Source of the DNA: a virus
Strand: one strand, 5' to 3'
Length of the DNA stretch: 55,498 nt
IMG/VR virus record: IMGVR_UViG_3300042691_029566
Location: 1-55,498 of that record
Shown here one piece after another: positions 20,180 to 44,940 of this stretch (positions are counted from its first letter, which is position 1; the number at the start of each line of letters is the position of its first letter). The translations under genes and the position numbers were made by a program. The notes under the pieces are model-generated. The model was not told where the DNA came from. It saw nothing but the letters and a program-made list of their open reading frames with translations, and ran no database searches.

Positions 20180-20189
20180 AAGTATTTAT
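20180..20189 (+). promoter_or_regulatory. Candidate late promoter AAGTATTTAT
   Basis: TATTTAT at 20183-20189 ends 5 bases before the ATG at 20195, in a 24-base intergenic gap. The same short spacing is seen before the genes at 1229, 2240, 26852, 29017 and 31772. Confidence 0.5.
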
Positions 20190-26857: not shown

Positions 26858-26864
26858 ATAAATA
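26858..26864 (-). promoter_or_regulatory. Candidate late promoter TATTTAT (minus strand)
   Basis: Read on the minus strand, TATTTAT ends 5 bases before the ATG at 26852. It fills most of the 14-base gap to the upstream gene. Confidence 0.45.
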
Positions 26865-29021: not shown

Positions 29022-29028
29022 ATAAATA
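29022..29028 (-). promoter_or_regulatory. Candidate late promoter TATTTAT (minus strand)
   Basis: On the minus strand TATTTAT ends 4 bases before the ATG at 29017, in the 27-base gap after the 29045 gene. Confidence 0.45.
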
Positions 29029-31778: not shown

Positions 31779-31785
31779 ATAAATA
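31779..31785 (-). promoter_or_regulatory. Candidate late promoter TATTTAT (minus strand)
   Basis: On the minus strand the sequence reads TATATTTATATTCATATG, almost the same as before gp25 at 2226-2242. The heptamer ends 6 bases before the start at 31772. It forms half of a divergent promoter region with the element at 31811-31841. Confidence 0.5.
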
Positions 31786-31810: not shown

Positions 31811-31841
31811 TTTGATTTAAATAAGTTTTTTATTATATTTT
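31811..31841 (+). promoter_or_regulatory. Host-type (Bacteroidota) promoter TTTG-N19-TATATTTT
   Basis: TTTG at 31811-31814 and TATATTTT at 31834-31841 are 19 bases apart. This fits the Bacteroidota consensus TTTG-N19-21-TAnnTTTG except for the last base. The -7 element abuts the ATG at 31842, which favours the second ATG at 31848 as translation start. Confidence 0.55.
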
Positions 31842-32744
31842 ATGGGTATGGATGAAAATGAAGTTTTGGTTGACATGTTAAGAGACTTGTTCGGTAAGGA
31901 CAAACACTATTATGCATCAAAAGGACAAATATCATTTAATTGTCCTTATTGTGATGATGGTAAAAATAAAGGTAACTTAGAGGTTAATATTAACGAACAC
32001 GTTTATAAATGTTGGGCTTGTTCTGAAACAAACGGAACTCACGGAGTATTGGGTAAATTAGTTGATATTTTTGGGACAAAAAGACAAAAGAAAATTTACG
32101 ACGTATTCAAACCTGAAGAATATAAAACAAGGGAGAAAGAAAGACCGAAGTTAAAACTACCTAAAGAATTCATTTCTTTCAAAGACGTAAACCCATTACA
32201 CATCCCACATAAGGAGGCGTTAAAGTATATTAAATCTCGTGGTATCACCGACCAAATGGTTGAAAAGTATAATATCGGATTTGCATGTGAGGGGGAATAC
32301 ATGGGAAGAATAATTGTCCCATCATACGGGATGGATGACGAGATGAATTATTTTGTCTCAAGGGCTTGGTTTAAAACGAAAAACAAATACAAAAATCCGG
32401 AGTTCCCAAAAGAGACTATCATCTTCAATGAAAAGTTAATTGATTGGGAAAAACCGATTTATATATGTGAAGGTGTTTTTGACGGATTCTTTACACCAAA
32501 CCCAGTTATACTTTTAGGGAAAGTGCTTCATGATTTATTGTTTGATGCGATATATAATAAGGCTAAGTCAGATGTTATAATATGTTTGGACGAAGATGCT
32601 TGGAACAACGCAAAAAAATTATACAACACTCTTAATGGAGGTAAGTTAAGAGGGAGAGTTAAAATTATAAAATTACCGAAAGACAAAGATGTTGCCGAAC
32701 TAAGGGGTAACATTGAAGATTATTTTTATCAAATGAATTATTAA
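31842..32744 (+). CDS. DnaG-type DNA primase (T4 gp61 counterpart)
   Basis: It makes RNA primers for lagging-strand synthesis with the replicative helicase. A zinc-binding domain has Cys34-x2-Cys37 and Cys57-x2-Cys60 (CPYC ... CWAC). A linker holds ALKYIKSRGIT, as in primase cores, then a TOPRIM region with YICEGVFDGF and DVIICLDEDAW, the metal-binding acidic residues, and a final AELRGNIEDYF helix. The 300 residues are slightly shorter than T4 gp61 (342). The ATG at 31842 is used here, but the in-frame ATG at 31848 lies 6 bases after the putative -7 element. The PD-(D/E)XK gene follows after 3 bases. Confidence 0.88.
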   Translation: MGMDENEVLVDMLRDLFGKDKHYYASKGQISFNCPYCDDGKNKGNLEVNINEHVYKCWACSETNGTHGVLGKLVDIFGTKRQKKIYDVFKPEEYKTREKERPKLKLPKEFISFKDVNPLHIPHKEALKYIKSRGITDQMVEKYNIGFACEGEYMGRIIVPSYGMDDEMNYFVSRAWFKTKNKYKNPEFPKETIIFNEKLIDWEKPIYICEGVFDGFFTPNPVILLGKVLHDLLFDAIYNKAKSDVIICLDEDAWNNAKKLYNTLNGGKLRGRVKIIKLPKDKDVAELRGNIEDYFYQMNY

Positions 32745-32747
32745 GAA

Positions 32748-33602
32748 ATGGATTTAAAAAAAATTGCTGAAGAGATTAGAGAAATCTTGGATGAGAAAAG
32801 AAAAGACTTGGAGTTGACCTTTATTGAGGACACCCACACTTATTATATGAAAGATACTGATGGTGAAGTTAAGAACACATTCCCCTCGGTTTCAAAAGTA
32901 TTAAAGAAGTTTTACCCTGAGTTCCCAACAGACGAAGCGGCTGAAAAGAAATCAAAAGGAGACCCAATTGTTAAACAACAATTGATTGAGGAATGGGCTG
33001 CGGCTGGTGACTACTCAACCAATATGGGAAGTAGGGTTCATTACATTTTGGAAAAAAAACTTATTGAAAAGTATGGGGATTATAAGGAAGTAAGACAGCC
33101 GATATTTGATTGTGATTTTACTCAAATATTAAAAAGTGATAGTATGGTTAGTGCAGGTAACAAATATCTTAAATTAATGGAGAGTAGAGATGTTGTATTA
33201 CTTGATACTGAAATGGTGCTAGGTCATCCAGACTTAAAGTACACGGGGCAGCCGGACAAAATTTGGTTAGTGGTTAACAAGAAGGGTGATGAGTTCGGAT
33301 TATTAATAACCGATTGGAAAACGAATAAGCCTAAAAACTTTCAATCAAATAACTTTACCAAACCGATGTATAAACCTTTTGAAAAGTATCCAAATACTGC
33401 ATTAGGTCACTACTACGTTCAATTACCTTTATATGGTAAGTTACTTTTACATATGTTGAAAGGAACCAAATACGAAAACATTAGATTATATGGTTGTATT
33501 GTCGTATTATTGCGTGAGGATTCAGAATATGAAGAGTATCGTGTTCCGCAAGAAGTCATTGACACAGTCCTTAATATGAATATGGAGGATTATTTAAATT
33601 GA
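32748..33602 (+). CDS. PD-(D/E)XK exonuclease-like protein (RecB/Cas4-type fold)
   Basis: The 284-residue protein has the nuclease core in order: GSRVHYILE (His98, helix motif I), Glu155 in TEMVLGH, GQPDKI with Asp170, TDWKTNK with Asp189 and Lys191, and YVQLPLYG (Gln225, Tyr229). These correspond to the E-x-GxxD-DxK-QxxxY motifs of the RecB/Cas4-like nuclease family. No Cys cluster for an iron-sulfur centre is seen, unlike Cas4. Placed between primase and the gp47/gp46 genes, it probably trims DNA ends in replication or recombination. Confidence 0.83.
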   Translation: MDLKKIAEEIREILDEKRKDLELTFIEDTHTYYMKDTDGEVKNTFPSVSKVLKKFYPEFPTDEAAEKKSKGDPIVKQQLIEEWAAAGDYSTNMGSRVHYILEKKLIEKYGDYKEVRQPIFDCDFTQILKSDSMVSAGNKYLKLMESRDVVLLDTEMVLGHPDLKYTGQPDKIWLVVNKKGDEFGLLITDWKTNKPKNFQSNNFTKPMYKPFEKYPNTALGHYYVQLPLYGKLLLHMLKGTKYENIRLYGCIVVLLREDSEYEEYRVPQEVIDTVLNMNMEDYLN

Positions 33603-33629
33603 CAATTCATTTGAAAAGTGATATATTTA
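33599..33629 (+). promoter_or_regulatory. Candidate promoter TTG-N20-TATATTTA
   Basis: TTG at 33599-33601 and TATATTTA at 33622-33629 have 20-base spacing, one mismatch from the Bacteroidota -7 consensus. The same bases also read as a sigma70-like TTGACA-N17-TATATT. The element ends 4 bases before the ATG at 33634 and overlaps the stop of the nuclease gene. Confidence 0.45.
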
Positions 33630-33633
33630 AACC

Positions 33634-33834
33634 ATGATAAAACTAACATTTAACACAACTGACAAAACAGCATTTGTTGATTTCGGAAATCAAATGACTG
33701 ACAATTATCTAAATGTACCAACAGTACAAGTAAGAGAAGGGTACTATGAATTAATGCAAAAAGATGAAAACGGAAAGTCATTACCGATTCTTCGTCTACC
33801 CATAAACCACACAATTATGTTTATTGAAAACTAA
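33634..33834 (+). CDS. Hypothetical protein (66 aa)
   Basis: A small soluble protein with a beta-rich pattern (KLTFNTTDKTAFVDF, VQVREGYYELM, LPINHTIMFIEN). No family was recognised. It begins 4 bases after a candidate promoter and stands first in a row of small genes leading to the gp47/gp46 pair. Confidence 0.55.
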   Translation: MIKLTFNTTDKTAFVDFGNQMTDNYLNVPTVQVREGYYELMQKDENGKSLPILRLPINHTIMFIEN

Positions 33835-34327: not shown

Positions 34328-34552
34328 ATGGATAATAAAATTAATTTAAAAGAAATGCCCACAGTAACATGTGAGTCATGTGGGTTTGACCAGTTTAAAG
34401 AGGTGACTTTCATTAAGAGGGTTCCTAAAGAATTAACAGGAACTGACAGAGATACCGATGTCCCATTTCCAACATACGCTTGTATAAAATGCGGACATAT
34501 CAATGACGATTTTAACCCCTTTTTTGAAGGTAACCCAGATTTAGAACTATGA
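34328..34552 (+). CDS. Small zinc-ribbon protein (74 aa)
   Basis: Two Cys-x-x-Cys pairs (CESC near residue 15-18 and CIKC near 52-55) are placed as in a rubredoxin-like zinc ribbon, with GFDQFKEVTF and GHINDDFNPFF around them. It could bind nucleic acid or act as an adaptor; no closer family was recognised. The stop overlaps the ATG of the gp47-like gene by 4 bases (ATGA), which suggests co-translation. Confidence 0.65.
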   Translation: MDNKINLKEMPTVTCESCGFDQFKEVTFIKRVPKELTGTDRDTDVPFPTYACIKCGHINDDFNPFFEGNPDLEL

Positions 34553-35328
34553 TAAAAAAAATAATACATTTCAGTGACTTACATGTTCGTTTATTTAAAG
34601 ACCACGATTTATATAGAGAAATTCTCAAAGATGCCTTTAAACAGTGGGGAGATATTGCTCCTGACCGTATTGTCTTTACTGGAGATTTAGTTCATTCTAA
34701 AAACCAAATGACACCTGAACTTGTTGAGTTCATCGCATGGGTTTTGACTGAGTGTTCCAAAATTGCAAAGACAATCTTAATTCCTGGAAACCACGATTTC
34801 CTTGAAAATAATATGGAACGATTAGATGCTCTAACACCCGTTGTGGATTCACTTAAAAATGAGATGGTAACTTACTATAAGAATAGAGGTGTGTATACCG
34901 ATGAAAACATTGATTGGTGTGTATATTCACTTATGGACCATAATATTCCGCCTGATATTGAAAAGTCAGACCGAGTTAAGATTGGACTATTCCACGGGCC
35001 GGTACAAGGACTTACAACCAATTTAGGTTTTAAGTTTGAAGATGGATTTGAAGCATCAAAGTTTGATGGGTGTGATTTGGTATTTTGTGGTGATATTCAT
35101 AAGAGACAAATTTTTGATATTCCTGGTGGTAAAAAAGCTTATATGATTGGCTCAACTATTTGTCAAAATTATGGTGAAACAATTACCAAACATGGATATG
35201 GAATCTATGATGTTGAGAAAGATGAATATACTGTTGTTGATTTACATAACCCAAAACCATTCGTGGCATTTAGAATAAACTCATACGAAGATATTGAAAA
35301 TGGAGCAGAAAAACTCTTTAACTATTGA
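34549..35328 (+). CDS. 47: Recombination nuclease subunit, gp47/SbcD/Mre11-like
   Basis: A metallophosphoesterase nuclease that works with gp46 to resect DNA ends for recombination-dependent replication. Motifs appear in order: SDLHVR (Asp10, His12), FTGDLVHS (Asp46), IPGNHDF (Asn81, His82, Asp83), GLFHGPVQG, and FCGDIHKRQ with the metal-binding His. At 259 residues it is about 80 shorter than T4 gp47 (339), so the C-terminal capping region seems reduced. The gp46 partner gene is not adjacent; three small genes lie between. Confidence 0.92.
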   Translation: MIKKIIHFSDLHVRLFKDHDLYREILKDAFKQWGDIAPDRIVFTGDLVHSKNQMTPELVEFIAWVLTECSKIAKTILIPGNHDFLENNMERLDALTPVVDSLKNEMVTYYKNRGVYTDENIDWCVYSLMDHNIPPDIEKSDRVKIGLFHGPVQGLTTNLGFKFEDGFEASKFDGCDLVFCGDIHKRQIFDIPGGKKAYMIGSTICQNYGETITKHGYGIYDVEKDEYTVVDLHNPKPFVAFRINSYEDIENGAEKLFNY

Positions 35329-36124: not shown

Positions 36125-36307
36125 ATGCCAAAGTCAAGACAAAGAAAGGACCACAAAAAGAAGTCCGAAGCCAGAACTCGTAAAAATGCATCACTTCGTC
36201 GTAAATACGAAAAGGAAATGCAAAATATGATGATGGAACAAATTGAAAAAATGAGACAAGCTCAATCAGGGGCTACCGAAAATGGACCTGTTCAGCAAAC
36301 CGCTTAA
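36125..36307 (+). CDS. Small basic protein (60 aa)
   Basis: The N-terminal half is extremely basic (PKSRQRKDHKKKSEARTRKN), followed by a Met/Glu-rich helix (MQNMMMEQIEKMRQAQ). It may bind nucleic acid. No family function is known to me. Its 3' end overlaps the gp46 gene by 26 bases. Confidence 0.55.
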   Translation: MPKSRQRKDHKKKSEARTRKNASLRRKYEKEMQNMMMEQIEKMRQAQSGATENGPVQQTA

Positions 36308-38651
36308 TTTAGAGAGAGTAAAGATGATTAAAGATTTGGATTTTGATAAGTTAGAGAATCCATACGTTCAAGTCGTATGGGAGGATGCTCCTGAAAATTT
36401 TACACAGGAAAAGTTAAAGAATGTGAAACATTACTTCCAAAAGAAGTATAACACAACCAGTGTAAACGTTATTACCAAACTCAAAAAGAGTGAGGAAGTT
36501 CAGGACAATGTGGATGTTTCTATCAATATTATGGATGAAAACTATCAACATGAACTTATCAAATCCATTCTTGAATCTAAAAATCAATCCGCTTTTTATG
36601 AAGACGTATTGAAAATTGATTCGGCAGTTAACAACAAAATGATTGCCGAACAAGAAGAAGTTGGAACGTTCAAGAAGTGGTTCATTAAAGAGATTGAGTT
36701 CTCAAACTTCCTATCTTATGGGGATAATCAAAAACTTAATTTTCAATCACTTGGAGGTATTACAGTAATTGAATCTGACCCACCAAACTTCGGAGGTAAG
36801 ACAGTATTGTCAGTTGACTTATTGTTGTTCTTATTCTTCAATACGACAACAAAAACGACCAAAGCTGAAGAAATCTTTAACCGTTATTCAGGTAAAGATA
36901 AGGTATCGGTTAAAGGTGAGATTATTATTGATGGGGAAGATTACATCATTGTTCGTGAACTTGAACGTAAAAAGTCAAAGGCTGGTGAGTGGAATGTTAA
37001 AACTGAATTGGATTTCTTTAAGAAATACCCTGATGGTTCCTTGGTTAAATTCACTGGTGAACAGAGAAGAGAAACTGAAAAGTTTATTAAAACTTCCATA
37101 GGTAGTTATGATGACTTTTTGATGACAATCTTAACGACAGGAACAAACTTGGAGGACTTGTTGGAGGCAAAACCAACTGCGAGAGGACAAGTGTTGTCAC
37201 GATTCTTGGGATTAGATTTCCTTAAAAGAAAAGAAGAGACCGGTAAAGAGATTTACTCTGAGTTCTCAAGGGGAATGATTTCAAACATCTATAATACTGA
37301 GAGTTTAAAAACTCAAAATGAAGAACTTGAAATGTCAATTAAGACATTTGAGGAAAACATTAAAGATGGGGAATCAAAGGTTTTAGACGTTCAGGGTAGA
37401 TTACAAAAGGGTCAGGAATATCGTGACAATTTGTTAAAACAAAAAGTTACTGTAGAGAAAGAGTTAACTCTTTTGAATCCTGACCAAACCAAAAAAGAAA
37501 TTGATGGGTTTGAATCTCAAATTAAACAAAACGTTTCATTACGTGATGGTGTTAAGATTGTTGAACCTTCAGAGTTCTACAAAGAGAACGAACACGACAA
37601 GGTTAAAGAAGAATACCAAAGGGCGTATAAGGAAAAGGTTGAGATTGATACAAACATCAATGGGATTAACAAACTAAAGAGTTCTGTTAGTGGAGGAATC
37701 AAATGCGAACACTGTGGGATTGAATTAATGAACGCAGCAATCACCCAATCTCGTATTGCGGAACTTGATGGATATATCGGGCGTAAAACCGAGATTGAGG
37801 GGTTAATGCAGGAATTATCCGACAAAGAACAGGGATTTGTTAAGTTGAAAAAGGACTTTGATGAGTATGAGAGGAACAAACTTGTATTTGAAAAATACCA
37901 AGCGACGATTGAAAACCTACAAACAAAGAAAGAAACTTTGGAAGGGAAACTTGGAAGATATGAGGAGATGCAAGATGTTATTAAATCTAACGAACAGATT
38001 GAATCTCAAATCATTAAAGCCAATTTAAGATTGGATGAGTTGAAGAGAGAGGAAGAACAGATTAAGAGAACCATTGCAAACTCTGAATTCCAAATCAAAC
38101 AAAACCGAGAAAAGATTGAAGGTAACTTAAAGACCATCACAAAGATTGCTGAGGAACAAGAGAAGGAGATTAAGTATAAATTATACTTGGAATTGTTTGG
38201 TAAGAATGGAATTGCGAAACGTATTATGAAGAGTATGATGCCACTCATCAACTCTGAACTACAACGATTACTTCAAGATTCATGTTACTTCAGATTGGAA
38301 ATCCGTATCAGTGAAAAGAACGAAGTTGAGTTTTGGATGATTGATAATAATACCCAAGTTGAAAAACTAATGACAACAGGTTCGGGATATGAAAAGACAA
38401 TTGCGTCACTTGCTTTAAGAGCGGTCCTTGCTAAAGTTTGTTCGTTACCAAAACCAAACATCACAGTATTTGACGAGGTATTCGGAAAGATTTCAAATGA
38501 TAACTTGGAAATGGTATATGAGTTCTTTATTAAGATTAAAGAATACTTTGAAAACATTTTGGTTATCACTCACAATCCAATGATATCCAATTGGGCAGAC
38601 AATGTAATTAAAATTACAAAAACGGACAACATATCAAAAGTTAGTCAATAA
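36282..38651 (+). CDS. 46: Recombination nuclease ATPase, gp46/SbcC/Rad50-like with N-terminal extension
   Basis: This SMC-type ATPase partners gp47. Before the usual start of the head domain (EIEFSNFLSYGDNQKLNF, about residue 138) lies an extra ~135-residue N-terminal part that T4 gp46 lacks. The Walker A is degenerate, PPNFGGKT (Lys173, Thr174), rather than GxNGxGK(S/T). A zinc hook CEHC (Cys475, Cys478) lies in the middle of long coiled coils. The signature is GSGYEKT (Ser701-Lys705), Walker B is ITVFDE (Asp731, Glu732), and the switch His is in VITHNP. The ATG at 36282 is chosen; Met16 (MIKDLDFDKLENP) is a fair alternative. A terminator follows. Confidence 0.92.
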   Translation: MDLFSKPLNLERVKMIKDLDFDKLENPYVQVVWEDAPENFTQEKLKNVKHYFQKKYNTTSVNVITKLKKSEEVQDNVDVSINIMDENYQHELIKSILESKNQSAFYEDVLKIDSAVNNKMIAEQEEVGTFKKWFIKEIEFSNFLSYGDNQKLNFQSLGGITVIESDPPNFGGKTVLSVDLLLFLFFNTTTKTTKAEEIFNRYSGKDKVSVKGEIIIDGEDYIIVRELERKKSKAGEWNVKTELDFFKKYPDGSLVKFTGEQRRETEKFIKTSIGSYDDFLMTILTTGTNLEDLLEAKPTARGQVLSRFLGLDFLKRKEETGKEIYSEFSRGMISNIYNTESLKTQNEELEMSIKTFEENIKDGESKVLDVQGRLQKGQEYRDNLLKQKVTVEKELTLLNPDQTKKEIDGFESQIKQNVSLRDGVKIVEPSEFYKENEHDKVKEEYQRAYKEKVEIDTNINGINKLKSSVSGGIKCEHCGIELMNAAITQSRIAELDGYIGRKTEIEGLMQELSDKEQGFVKLKKDFDEYERNKLVFEKYQATIENLQTKKETLEGKLGRYEEMQDVIKSNEQIESQIIKANLRLDELKREEEQIKRTIANSEFQIKQNREKIEGNLKTITKIAEEQEKEIKYKLYLELFGKNGIAKRIMKSMMPLINSELQRLLQDSCYFRLEIRISEKNEVEFWMIDNNTQVEKLMTTGSGYEKTIASLALRAVLAKVCSLPKPNITVFDEVFGKISNDNLEMVYEFFIKIKEYFENILVITHNPMISNWADNVIKITKTDNISKVSQ

Positions 38652-38655
38652 AAAG

Positions 38656-38682
38656 AATACGGAGAAATCCGTATTTTTTTTT
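38656..38682 (+). terminator. Rho-independent terminator after gp46
   Basis: A perfect 8-bp stem AATACGGA/TCCGTATT (38656-38663 with 38668-38675) closes a GAAA tetraloop and runs into a T-tract to 38682. The T-tract end is also the -33 box of the next promoter. Confidence 0.93.
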
Positions 38683-38712
38683 GGATTTAACCCTAAACAT
38701 ATTGTATATTTG
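38680..38712 (+). promoter_or_regulatory. Host-type (Bacteroidota) promoter TTTG-N21-TATATTTG
   Basis: TTTG (38680-38683) and TATATTTG (38705-38712) are 21 bases apart, a full match to the Bacteroidota consensus TTTG-N19-21-TAnnTTTG. The ATG at 38726 follows 13 bases later. It overlaps the terminator T-tract, so one operon ends and the next begins within a few bases. Confidence 0.75.
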
Positions 38713-38725
38713 TAGAAATAAAATT

Positions 38726-39247
38726 ATGGATTACTTATTATTTGCTTTCGGGGATTACACTAAGACTGACCCCCATATTAATTTAATTGTGGATTTTGTA
38801 TCACAAATCTCAAGTAAAGAAGTCACATATCAATACGGAGACTCAGGAATTATTGTTAGTTTCTCAACAGTTAAGACAGTTGATGAAATCACAGATTATC
38901 TTGAGATTAATTTGACTAAATTAACTGCAATGTTCTTCGTATTTCCGGTAACCGATGACACCATAATGTCAATGGATACTGAAATTTACTCTCACTTATT
39001 TAGTAAAACTGACAATTTGTCAGAAACCCCGACACAAAAATATGTGTCAGATATGACGGATATCCCGTCGTTTGACAGAATAATGGATACAAAACCATTG
39101 GATGAGTTATTTAATATCTTATTTAAGCCGGTTGAAGTGAAAAAGGTATTAACTTTGGACGAGATATTGGATAAGATAATTGATAAAGGAATTAATAATT
39201 TAACACAAACAGAAAAAGAACAACTAGATGAGTACTCAAAAAAGTAA
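38726..39247 (+). CDS. Hypothetical protein upstream of the sigma factor gene (173 aa)
   Basis: The ATG at 38726 is chosen because the in-frame TTG at 38681 lies inside the promoter. The N-terminal half (MDYLLFAFGDYTK ... VDFVSQISSKEVTYQYGDSGIIVSF) looks like a small alpha/beta domain. A long acidic linker and a C-terminal helix region (LTLDEILDKIIDKGINNLTQTEKEQLDEYSK) end the protein; that last motif is a recurrent C-terminal helix in Bacteroidota and phage proteins. It overlaps the sigma gene by 20 bases, so they are co-expressed. The function is unknown; a link to transcription control is inference. Confidence 0.6.
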   Translation: MDYLLFAFGDYTKTDPHINLIVDFVSQISSKEVTYQYGDSGIIVSFSTVKTVDEITDYLEINLTKLTAMFFVFPVTDDTIMSMDTEIYSHLFSKTDNLSETPTQKYVSDMTDIPSFDRIMDTKPLDELFNILFKPVEVKKVLTLDEILDKIIDKGINNLTQTEKEQLDEYSKK

Positions 39248-40052
39248 GAAAATGGTGGACAAGAGCGTGGTTATTCCAATTAACCAAGATGAGATTTCGC
39301 ATTATTTGAAGGACATTAGAAAGATTAAGGTAATGACACCCGAGAGGGAAAGGGAGTTATCTTTAAGAATACAATCTCCAAATATTACTGAAAAAGAAAA
39401 ACAACAAATCCAACAAGAATTACTTGAGGGTAATTTAAGATTCGTAATTACCGTGGCTAAGATGTATCAAAATCAGGGAGTTGACTTTTGTGACTTAATT
39501 GCTGAGGGTAATATTGGATTAATGAGAGCGATTCAAAACTTTGATTGGACCAAAAACCTAAGATTTATATCTTATGCGGTGTGGTGGATTAGACAATCAA
39601 TTCTTCAGTCTTTAAACGAACACTCAAGAACCATTCGTATTCCTGTAAATGTTATACAGGACTTGTATAAAGAGAAAAAGAAGACTGAAAAGGACGGAAG
39701 TGAGATTGATAGTAGATTCGTTAACCTACCATCAACAATCAATCTTGAGCATCAAATCAACGAAGAGGGAGACACTCTAATTGATTTAATTGAGAATAAG
39801 GACTCAATGAGACCCGATGAGGTTTTCAACGGGGACCAACAACTTAAAGACGGGTTGTTTGACATTATGAATGTTTTGGATGAAAGAGAAAGACAAATCG
39901 TTGAGGACTATTACGGTATCTCGGGGACTCCAAGAACATTGGAAGATATTGGTTCGGATTTCAACCTAACCAAAGAAAGAGTTAGACAGATTAAGGAAAA
40001 AGCTTTACGTAAACTACGTAACGAGAGTTCAAGTTTGTTTGATTACATCTAA
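39228..40052 (+). CDS. RpoD-like sigma factor (sigma70 family)
   Basis: The 274-residue protein has the domains of a primary-type sigma factor without a large region 1.1. SHYLKDIRKIKVMTPERE is region 1.2; GNLRFVITVAKMYQ...DLIAEGNIGLMRAI is region 2.1-2.2; RFISYAVWWIRQSI is 2.3-2.4, the -10 reader; EHSRTIRIPVNV begins region 3; ERERQIVEDYYGI and RTLEDIGSDFNLTKERVRQIKEKALRKLR form region 4 with its helix-turn-helix. It resembles bacterial RpoD far more than T4 gp55. It may direct host RNA polymerase to phage promoters, perhaps the TATTTAT sites. Transcribed from the host-type promoter at 38680. Confidence 0.93.
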   Translation: MSTQKSKKMVDKSVVIPINQDEISHYLKDIRKIKVMTPERERELSLRIQSPNITEKEKQQIQQELLEGNLRFVITVAKMYQNQGVDFCDLIAEGNIGLMRAIQNFDWTKNLRFISYAVWWIRQSILQSLNEHSRTIRIPVNVIQDLYKEKKKTEKDGSEIDSRFVNLPSTINLEHQINEEGDTLIDLIENKDSMRPDEVFNGDQQLKDGLFDIMNVLDERERQIVEDYYGISGTPRTLEDIGSDFNLTKERVRQIKEKALRKLRNESSSLFDYI

Positions 40053-40053
40053 T

Positions 40054-40064
40054 GAACTATTTAT
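40054..40064 (+). promoter_or_regulatory. Candidate late promoter GAACTATTTAT
   Basis: This differs by one base from the 11-mer at 1214, 4581 and 14172. It lies directly after the sigma gene, 40 bases before the ATG at 40105, and heads the probable lysis and head-protein operon. Confidence 0.5.
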
Positions 40065-40104: not shown

Positions 40105-40380
40105 ATGAATACAGTACAAAAATATTTGCCTTACGCAACATTCGCTTTAATTTTGTTTATCTTTTTAAAGGGTTGTGGTACTGGCTCTCAGGTTAAAAGT
40201 ACCGATAAGAAAATTGAAATACTAACACATAAGGTTGATTCTTTATCAAACATCGTGGTGACTCAAGAAGAGATGATTAATACTTTAGAGAACACCACTA
40301 TGTGGCAGACATTGGTTATTGAGGAACTTTCTGATAAGGACCATATGCCAATAAACCATTACAGAAGTCAAACTAAATAA
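40105..40380 (+). CDS. Membrane-anchored coiled-coil protein, possible spanin (91 aa)
   Basis: An N-terminal hydrophobic segment (YATFALILFIFLKG) ends at a Cys (KGCGTGS) that could be a weak lipobox, although Lys at -2 is unusual. Then follows a helical coiled coil (IEILTHKVDSLSNIVVTQEEMINTLE). Single anchor plus coiled coil just upstream of the amidase suits an inner-membrane spanin. The stop shares a base with the next ATG (TAATG). The lysis role is inferred from layout. Confidence 0.5.
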   Translation: MNTVQKYLPYATFALILFIFLKGCGTGSQVKSTDKKIEILTHKVDSLSNIVVTQEEMINTLENTTMWQTLVIEELSDKDHMPINHYRSQTK

Positions 40381-43617: not shown

Positions 43618-43627
43618 TAGTATTTAT
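43617..43627 (+). promoter_or_regulatory. Candidate late promoter ATAGTATTTAT
   Basis: TATTTAT at 43621-43627 lies in the 24-base gap between two genes, ending 14 bases before the ATG at 43642. Confidence 0.42.
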
Positions 43628-43641
43628 TATAAACTGATATC

Positions 43642-44940
43642 ATGAAAAATAGTAAAGAACTTTTCAATAGAATTTTAAATGAGTCAATTCAAAGTAAAGC
43701 TGATGAGTTGACTGAAAAAATTATGCAAAAAGTTGAAACTAATGAAGATATTGACACTTTTGAATTAGAAGTTGGGCAAGAGTATGACTATAAAAAATCT
43801 GACGACTATAAATCTAAAAGAGTTGTTTATAAAGGTAAAGTACCTCATGGCGGTAAGTTTGAAAATAATGACGGTGAAAAAATAATTTTAAGTAATAAAT
43901 TGATTAATAAAATGATAAGAAAAATTAATGAAACCCAATTAGAAAAAGAAATTGGTGAAGGTAATAAGTTTACAGGTGAATTGGCAAAGGCTAAAAAGGC
44001 TGGTAAAACATCATTTGAGGTTGATGGAAAAACCTATAAAGTTGAAGCTAATGAAGATTTAGGAGGTATGGAAGATTCACATCCGGCTTTCGGTGGAATG
44101 AATCTAATGAACCCATCAGATGAAGATAAAGAAACTTTAGAAAAATACCTTAGAAGATACATAAAGAGAGACTATAGTGTTGAAGACGAAGATGATTTTG
44201 GTTTTGAAACACTTGAGGAGTCAGTAACTTATAGAGTTGCAATATCTGAAAATCATACTGTTGATTTAACTGAGAATGAGTTAGTTGATATGATTGAGTC
44301 AATAGTTACTGAAGAACAGATAACAAACAATGTTAAGGGTGGTAAAGCTAAAGGGTTAGTTGCTTATGACAAAGTGCACAAACAAGATTCACAAGTTAAC
44401 TCTAACGCTTTGAAAGACGTTGAAAAGAAAATGAAAGAGTATGTTAAGGCAGGTTCAAAAGGAAATTTTGAAATGAATCCTAAACACTTCCCAAAAGGAA
44501 ATGGTGAATTAGGAGAGATGTCTAAAAAGGCTTATAGAGCATCAGACGCTGTTGAAGAATATATTGAAAACTTCGCTTATTCTCCTGGCATGGAAAATTT
44601 AAAATATGATGAGATTGAACCAAATGATGAATGGTTGTCAATGAATATTGAAGGTTCTGAAAAGACTGGTAACTCAGGTAAATATGCAAATGCTGTTGAG
44701 ACTGACTTAGGTAAGAAAATCAATAAGAAAAGAAAAGAAAACCTATATCAGAAAGAAGTTGATAGAAGTTATAAGAGAGTGAAACAACCTGTAGATACTG
44801 CAGGGGAAGATAAGAAAGAAGGTAAATTAGATAAAATGTTTTCAAAGTTAGGCGAATCTGAAAATGAAAAAACAAATCTAATTAATGAGGAAATGAGTAA
44901 AATGAAAAATTTAATTACTTATCGCCAAAAAACTCAATAA
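43642..44940 (+). CDS. Charged hypothetical protein, possible head-internal/structural protein (432 aa)
   Basis: The N-terminus NRILNESIQ (Leu12-Asn-Glu/Ser15) again fits the prohead-protease consensus. A segment GNKFTGELAKAKKAGKTSFEVDGKTYKVE (about residues 107-135) is a motif I know from virion-associated proteins of large phages. Further on come acidic helices and a basic part (KKINKKRKENLYQKEVDRSYKRVKQ). The C-terminal helix NLINEEMSKMKNLI resembles the N-terminal helix of the 41876 protein. It has its own candidate promoter and ends in a terminator. The role is inferred. Confidence 0.55.
   Translation: MKNSKELFNRILNESIQSKADELTEKIMQKVETNEDIDTFELEVGQEYDYKKSDDYKSKRVVYKGKVPHGGKFENNDGEKIILSNKLINKMIRKINETQLEKEIGEGNKFTGELAKAKKAGKTSFEVDGKTYKVEANEDLGGMEDSHPAFGGMNLMNPSDEDKETLEKYLRRYIKRDYSVEDEDDFGFETLEESVTYRVAISENHTVDLTENELVDMIESIVTEEQITNNVKGGKAKGLVAYDKVHKQDSQVNSNALKDVEKKMKEYVKAGSKGNFEMNPKHFPKGNGELGEMSKKAYRASDAVEEYIENFAYSPGMENLKYDEIEPNDEWLSMNIEGSEKTGNSGKYANAVETDLGKKINKKRKENLYQKEVDRSYKRVKQPVDTAGEDKKEGKLDKMFSKLGESENEKTNLINEEMSKMKNLITYRQKTQ

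Follow-up and report, generated by a model that had tools for sequence, protein, structure and literature searches.

The question raised by this locus is which promoters a phage would read with a sigma factor that looks like the primary sigma factor of its host. The window, the whole stretch of DNA analysed, is a 55,498-base IMG/VR virus record (a fragment of about 55 kb), and it encodes at 39228-40052 on the + strand an RpoD-like sigma factor of 274 aa, here called S1. It was initially annotated as a sigma factor with regions 1.2 to 4 that is carried instead of the T4-type late sigma gp55, is transcribed from a host-type promoter and may then switch transcription to the structural genes by reading their TATTTAT motif.

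S1 is a member of the sigma-70 family, with Pfam matches above cut-off to region 2 (PF04542, E 1e-15; aa 66-134, 39423-39629, + strand) and region 4 (PF04545, E 4.5e-17; aa 214-265, 39867-40022, + strand), and a match to region 1.2 (PF00140, 26.3 bits against a cut-off of 22; aa 23-49, 39294-39374, + strand). Region 3 (PF04539) was matched by none of three phage sigmas, versus matches at about 1e-17 for two Bacteroidota RpoDs. Its place is taken by a linker of 39 aa (aa 142-180, 39651-39767, + strand) with a sigma-finger-like end preceding GDT, and the distance between regions 2 and 4 is 39 aa in all 75 distinct S1 copies compared with 58-59 in four bacterial RpoDs. S1 is not a full RpoD, as most of the sigma-3 domain is missing; of the regions initially assigned, 1.2, 2 and 4 are present and region 3 is not.

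The resemblance to a bacterial primary sigma, which had also been proposed, was borne out by matches to bacterial SigA/RpoD chains in the PDB, with E-values down to 7e-47, and by the comparison with the RpoD of Bacteroidota. This protein (RpoD/SigA, approximately 287 aa) has regions 1.2, 2 and 4 and no region 1.1, like S1, and the two are nearly identical in regions 2.3-2.4 and 4.2. S1 carries RFISYAVWWIRQSILQSLN in region 2.3-2.4, where the shared sequence is FISYAVWW[IV]RQSILQ (FISYAVWW[IV][RK]QSI.Q.L in the alignment), and in region 4.2, where the shared form is T[RK]ERVRQIKEKA, its recognition helix is TKERVRQIK, with TKERVRQ[IV]K invariant in 75 of 75 distinct copies. From this near identity, promoters with a TTG element at -33 are predicted for S1, and the invariance of region 4.2 likewise leads us to expect a -33 element. 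S1 differs from Bacteroidota RpoD in its overall identity of only about 40%, in the collapse of the sigma-3 domain, in the lysine for arginine after the first threonine of region 4.2 and in an acidic-aromatic C-terminus.

The C-terminus of S1 is LFDYI (40035-40049, + strand), which is near-invariant among the relatives as L[FY][DE]Y[ILM]. It is acidic, in contrast to the basic end of RpoD, and recalls in style the clamp-binding tails of T4 gp55 and gp43. Coupling to a sliding clamp through this tail was considered and set aside as a lead only: the DNA polymerases of the relatives end otherwise, no further protein with such an ending was found across four contigs, and the gp45-type clamp (PF02916) gave no match in 10 large relatives, a search by which a diverged clamp could be missed. 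The C-terminus of RpoD itself has a similar L..YL pattern, which also counts against this reading.

Over 500 phage loci in IMG/VR encode relatives of S1. Viral contigs were scanned twice, which gave 45 and then at least 591 loci, the best 80 of the second scan being retained, whereas the best identity in a collection of annotated phages was about 39%, indicating that no cultured member of the S1 family is present in that collection. The large, uncultured lake viruses of bacteria that carry S1 form a very common family. In a tree, all phage copies fall into one clade (support 100/100), the stem of which is 1.06 changes per site long; this argues that the gene is old in phages. Among short sigmas of primary type, from Bacteroidota, Fibrobacterota and other groups, this long-stemmed clade takes no firm place. 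Recent capture from a host was rejected, as the retrieved bacterial sequences are all at or below about 41% identity and the phage copies form one deep clade. S1 may instead descend from a short primary-type sigma of Bacteroidota-like bacteria, having been long in the phage family and having lost its sigma-3 domain there.

The genes next to S1 have the same order in the relatives examined: a gp47-like SbcD subunit (34549-35328, + strand; phrog_100, E 1e-28), a gp46-like SbcC subunit (36282-38651, + strand; phrog_77, E 1e-42), a gene of 173 aa that we call X (38726-39247, + strand), and S1, the start of which overlaps X by 20 nt. As had been claimed, the operon of X and S1 is preceded by a host-type promoter, TTTG-N21-TATATTTG (38680-38712, + strand), at a distance of 46 nt from X. 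TAnnTTTG, which serves the primary sigma of Bacteroidota as its -7 box (PMC9723704), is conserved ahead of the operon in 65 of the 76 distinct relatives, compared with TATTTAT alone in 2 of 76. S1 should therefore be an early product of the host enzyme. The predicted N-terminal domain of the partner X is ferredoxin-like; a variable acidic linker follows, and then C-terminal helices matching DUF6576, with the motif LTLDEILDKI..G..SLT..EK..L..YSK. A role for X as an anti-sigma factor was considered and dropped: AlphaFold and Foldseek gave no sigma-related fold, and the ferredoxin-like, ACT/PII-like likeness of the N-terminal domain was not significant.

The replication genes of S1 phages, with exceptions such as a helicase operon that carries TATTTAT, have neither TATTTAT nor the host-type motif. 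A third class of site, TTGAC-N18-TATnnTT (M), was found in upstream regions of ssb (17 of 19 distinct regions), polB (18/22) and primase (14/20). The spacing peaks at exactly 18, with 24 sites on the coding strand compared with 3 at a spacing of 17, 1 at 19 and 5 on the opposite strand, and M sites lie on 11/30 replication versus 2/32 structural landmarks (6/16 versus 1/20 in held-out genomes). One of the two held-out genomes, G017, has no clear M spacing peak (3 sites each at 18 and 19). In the window, the motif scan placed TTGAC-N18-TAT upstream of the ORF at 33634-33834 (33599-33624, + strand), and an M-like bipartite site, TTGAT-N17-TAT (31812-31836, + strand), precedes the DNA primase (31842-32744, + strand; phrog_47, E 2e-33), a proposed middle gene. 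M has the -33 element that TATTTAT lacks, and is on sequence grounds the better candidate for S1.

The host class and M share the frame TTG-N20-TA, so that the host sigma could read M as a variant. This leads to an alternative in which S1 reads the host-sigma promoters, TTTG-N19/20-TAnnTTTG, as a phage-controlled substitute, for example once the host sigma is displaced, with M being a variant of the host class. The near identity of regions 2.3-2.4 and 4.2 to RpoD favours such a substitute, as do the presence of host-type promoters in S1 phages and the common spacing of the -33 and -7 elements. However, at equal spacing the marks of the two classes are mutually exclusive: none of 36 sites with AC after the -33 TTG had the TTTG ending at -7, compared with 43 of 99 others in six genomes (p=1e-7), and in the two held-out genomes alone the figures were 0/14 and 21/44 (p=9e-4), sites in related genomes being counted as independent in these and the following contingency tests. 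This exclusion points to two specificities. The share of AC was 36/135 in S1 phages and 0/49 in three phages without S1 (p=4e-6), which also differ from the S1 phages in host and ancestry. Moreover, the host class is strong in Microcystis phage Mel-JY01 (PP395634), where S1 is absent (TTG-N20-TAnnTTTG, 16 coding versus 1 opposite), and hence does not depend on S1. We therefore regard the substitute as unlikely, although it is the alternative that keeps the most weight. A finding that counts against M as the target of S1 is the M-like site at the X-S1 operon itself in one relative (G002). The strength of a Bacteroidota-type promoter class in Mel-JY01 suggests that this phage may in reality infect a member of the Bacteroidota rather than Microcystis.

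That the structural genes bear a motif unlike the host-type one, as initially stated, agrees with our counts. In three large relatives, TATTTAT (P) was present in 61, 109 and 67 upstream regions on the coding strand versus 28, 47 and 35 on the opposite strand, with 10-24 in shuffles. Among structural landmarks (genes or operons), 26 of 32 carried it, compared with 9 of 41 others (p=4.6e-7), the figures being 16/20 versus 5/24 in a held-out replicate of two genomes (p=1.9e-4). No -33 element is conserved in its flanks. The sites of three genomes (G001-G003) have a weak T-rich, G-poor stretch 12-15 nt upstream, too near for a usual -35 element. The motif scan of the window gave + strand sites at 1218-1224 (a putative late promoter), 2228-2234 (ahead of baseplate genes, identified by homology to Flavobacterium phage immuto), 4585-4591 (ahead of a 1979-aa ORF), 20183-20189, 40058-40064 (directly past the stop codon of S1 and ahead of the ORF at 40105-40380) and 43621-43627 (ahead of the ORF at 43642-44940), and - strand sites at 26858-26864, 29022-29028 and 31779-31785. 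The sites at 1218-1224, 2228-2234, 20183-20189, 26858-26864 and 29022-29028 start just 11-13 nt 5' of the annotated ATG. If initiation occurs about 6 nt past the motif, this distance may leave late transcripts with little or no leader; otherwise, the true start codons could lie downstream. A further motif, ATAAATA, in regions free of TATTTAT was rejected as an artefact of the filter used.

Could S1 read TATTTAT and drive the late switch, as originally proposed? S1 and TATTTAT co-occur in the S1 phage family, S1 has a host-type promoter, and a few replication operons, among them the helicase operon, also bear the motif. These points fit the proposal, but Flavobacterium phage immuto (NC_055915) contradicts it. 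No S1 was found in the six frames of immuto, by the same alignment that recovered S1 in four other records as a positive control, and yet TATTTAT precedes its terL, sheath, tube, hub and other structural genes, with ATATTTA at 39 coding versus 4 opposite-strand positions. Immuto encodes a different sigma factor, S2 (E 3.6e-18), which is also present in Mel-JY01, where TATTTAT is weaker (24 versus 14). TATTTAT promoters and S2 in phages lacking S1 indicate that S1 is not required for TATTTAT, in a comparison across hosts and lineages that differ from those of the S1 phages. The sites also have no conserved -33 element, yet region 4 of S1 is intact, and with S2 a gp55-like sigma is available for late promoters. 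Reading of TATTTAT by S1 thus appears improbable, while a switch from host to phage sigma as such is plausible in view of the host-type promoter and the conservation of S1. In a further phage without S1, LR756508 (484 kb, of which 300 kb were read), no clear promoter class of any kind was seen. The early region of immuto (60-76 kb; L096) carries a repeated TTG-N20-TAT[AC]TTTA, with 29 coding versus 1 opposite at spacings of 18-21; it is a close variant of the host consensus and is hardly used by S1 phages.

It is very improbable that TATTTAT is a translation-initiation or mRNA signal and not a promoter: in half of the genes it starts 12-27 nt before the ATG and is followed by an A-rich stretch, but its near absence from operon-internal genes (10/447 genes with gaps of at most 10 nt in four genomes) argues against a translation signal, as does its tie to structural genes.

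The claim that S1 is carried instead of gp55 was not borne out: the window is a 55-kb fragment, and almost all large relatives have S1 together with a gp55-like sigma. A search for sigma region 2 gave two matches in each of 10 large relatives, the second being S2 (240-266 aa) in 9 of 10. In the tenth (G003), an IMG/VR fragment in which S2 was not detected, the second match is a different, ECF-like protein of 192 aa (L068:17573-18151; phrog_1740, E 2e-26). The best PHROG of S2 is that of gp55, weakly (phrog_234, E 0.004-0.009), and with a profile made from the gp55 of T4 and eight further phages, S2 was the top match (E 2e-4 to 1e-3) in all three genomes that yielded it. By hhalign, S2 and gp55 were linked with 61% probability (E 8e-5), a statistically weak link, whereas S1 was not detected by the gp55 profile (E 3.5) and reached 4.5% probability. 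The AlphaFold model of S2 (mean pLDDT 73.6) can be superposed on sigma region 2 structures (for 4lup, 91 residues with Z 8.2 and rmsd 2.9); Foldseek with this model gave no significant match alone (best E 0.044). The hydrophobic-acidic clamp-binding motif of gp55 is absent from the C-termini of S2. We consider S2 to be gp55-like, short of a proven gp55, and judging from sequence, it would be a better reader of TATTTAT than S1.

The model that we prefer, with a probability of about one half, is a succession in which the host sigma would be followed by S1 on the M class and then by S2 on the late genes. S1 would be made early from the promoter read by the host sigma, and could then steer the host RNA polymerase to the middle promoters TTGAC-N18-TATnnTT of ssb, polB and primase, while S2, as a gp55-type sigma, would read the promoters of the structural genes, which consist of TATTTAT with no -33 element. 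The binding of S1 to core polymerase, the promoter class given to each sigma and the timing are all inferred. In a wider form, which we put forward tentatively, three sigmas would relay on one host core, the host sigma for early genes, S1 for replication and S2 for late genes, and this relay would replace the activator-based middle switch of T4, MotA/AsiA.

Successive phage sigmas are known from the cascade of Bacillus phage SPO1, in which gp28 is followed by gp33/gp34 for middle and late genes. The logic of the proposed succession of S1 and S2 is the same. The sigma lineages differ, however, as here a relative of the host primary sigma is combined with a gp55-like one, and their order is deduced rather than observed. 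T4 gp55 resembles S1 in lying near gp46/gp47, in its short acidic-hydrophobic C-terminus and in being a phage sigma that acts on the host polymerase, as S1 presumably does. Unlike gp55, S1 has regions 1.2 and 4, and the gp55-like protein of these phages is S2, encoded elsewhere in the genome. Late genes of T4 are transcribed with gp55, gp33 and the gp45 clamp (PMC2988020, PMC7892883). Iyer and co-workers described group 2 jumbo phages with two types of sigma factor, one minimal and one close to cellular RpoD (PMC7824862). No promoters were assigned to those sigmas, and the S1 family differs in being uncultured, in having lost the sigma-3 domain and in having an RpoD-like and a gp55-like sigma together. 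An incomplete literature search gave no earlier report of the sigma-3 loss or of the M, P and host-type promoter classes, which appear to be new, as does the combination of S1 with a gp55-like sigma.

If the model is true, gene timing in a dominant group of freshwater jumbo phages depends on two phage-encoded sigmas that differ in origin, and a sigma of primary type can function without the sigma-3 domain. With promoter classes this concrete, the time of expression could be predicted for most genes in hundreds of uncultured genomes. Immuto is an isolate, which makes the S2/TATTTAT half of the model open to test now. As a separate observation, the RecA match in two of the relatives (G001:C1:110342-111352 and G005:C1:73563-74573) contains one in-frame TAA, which could be a sequence error or an oddity of translation.
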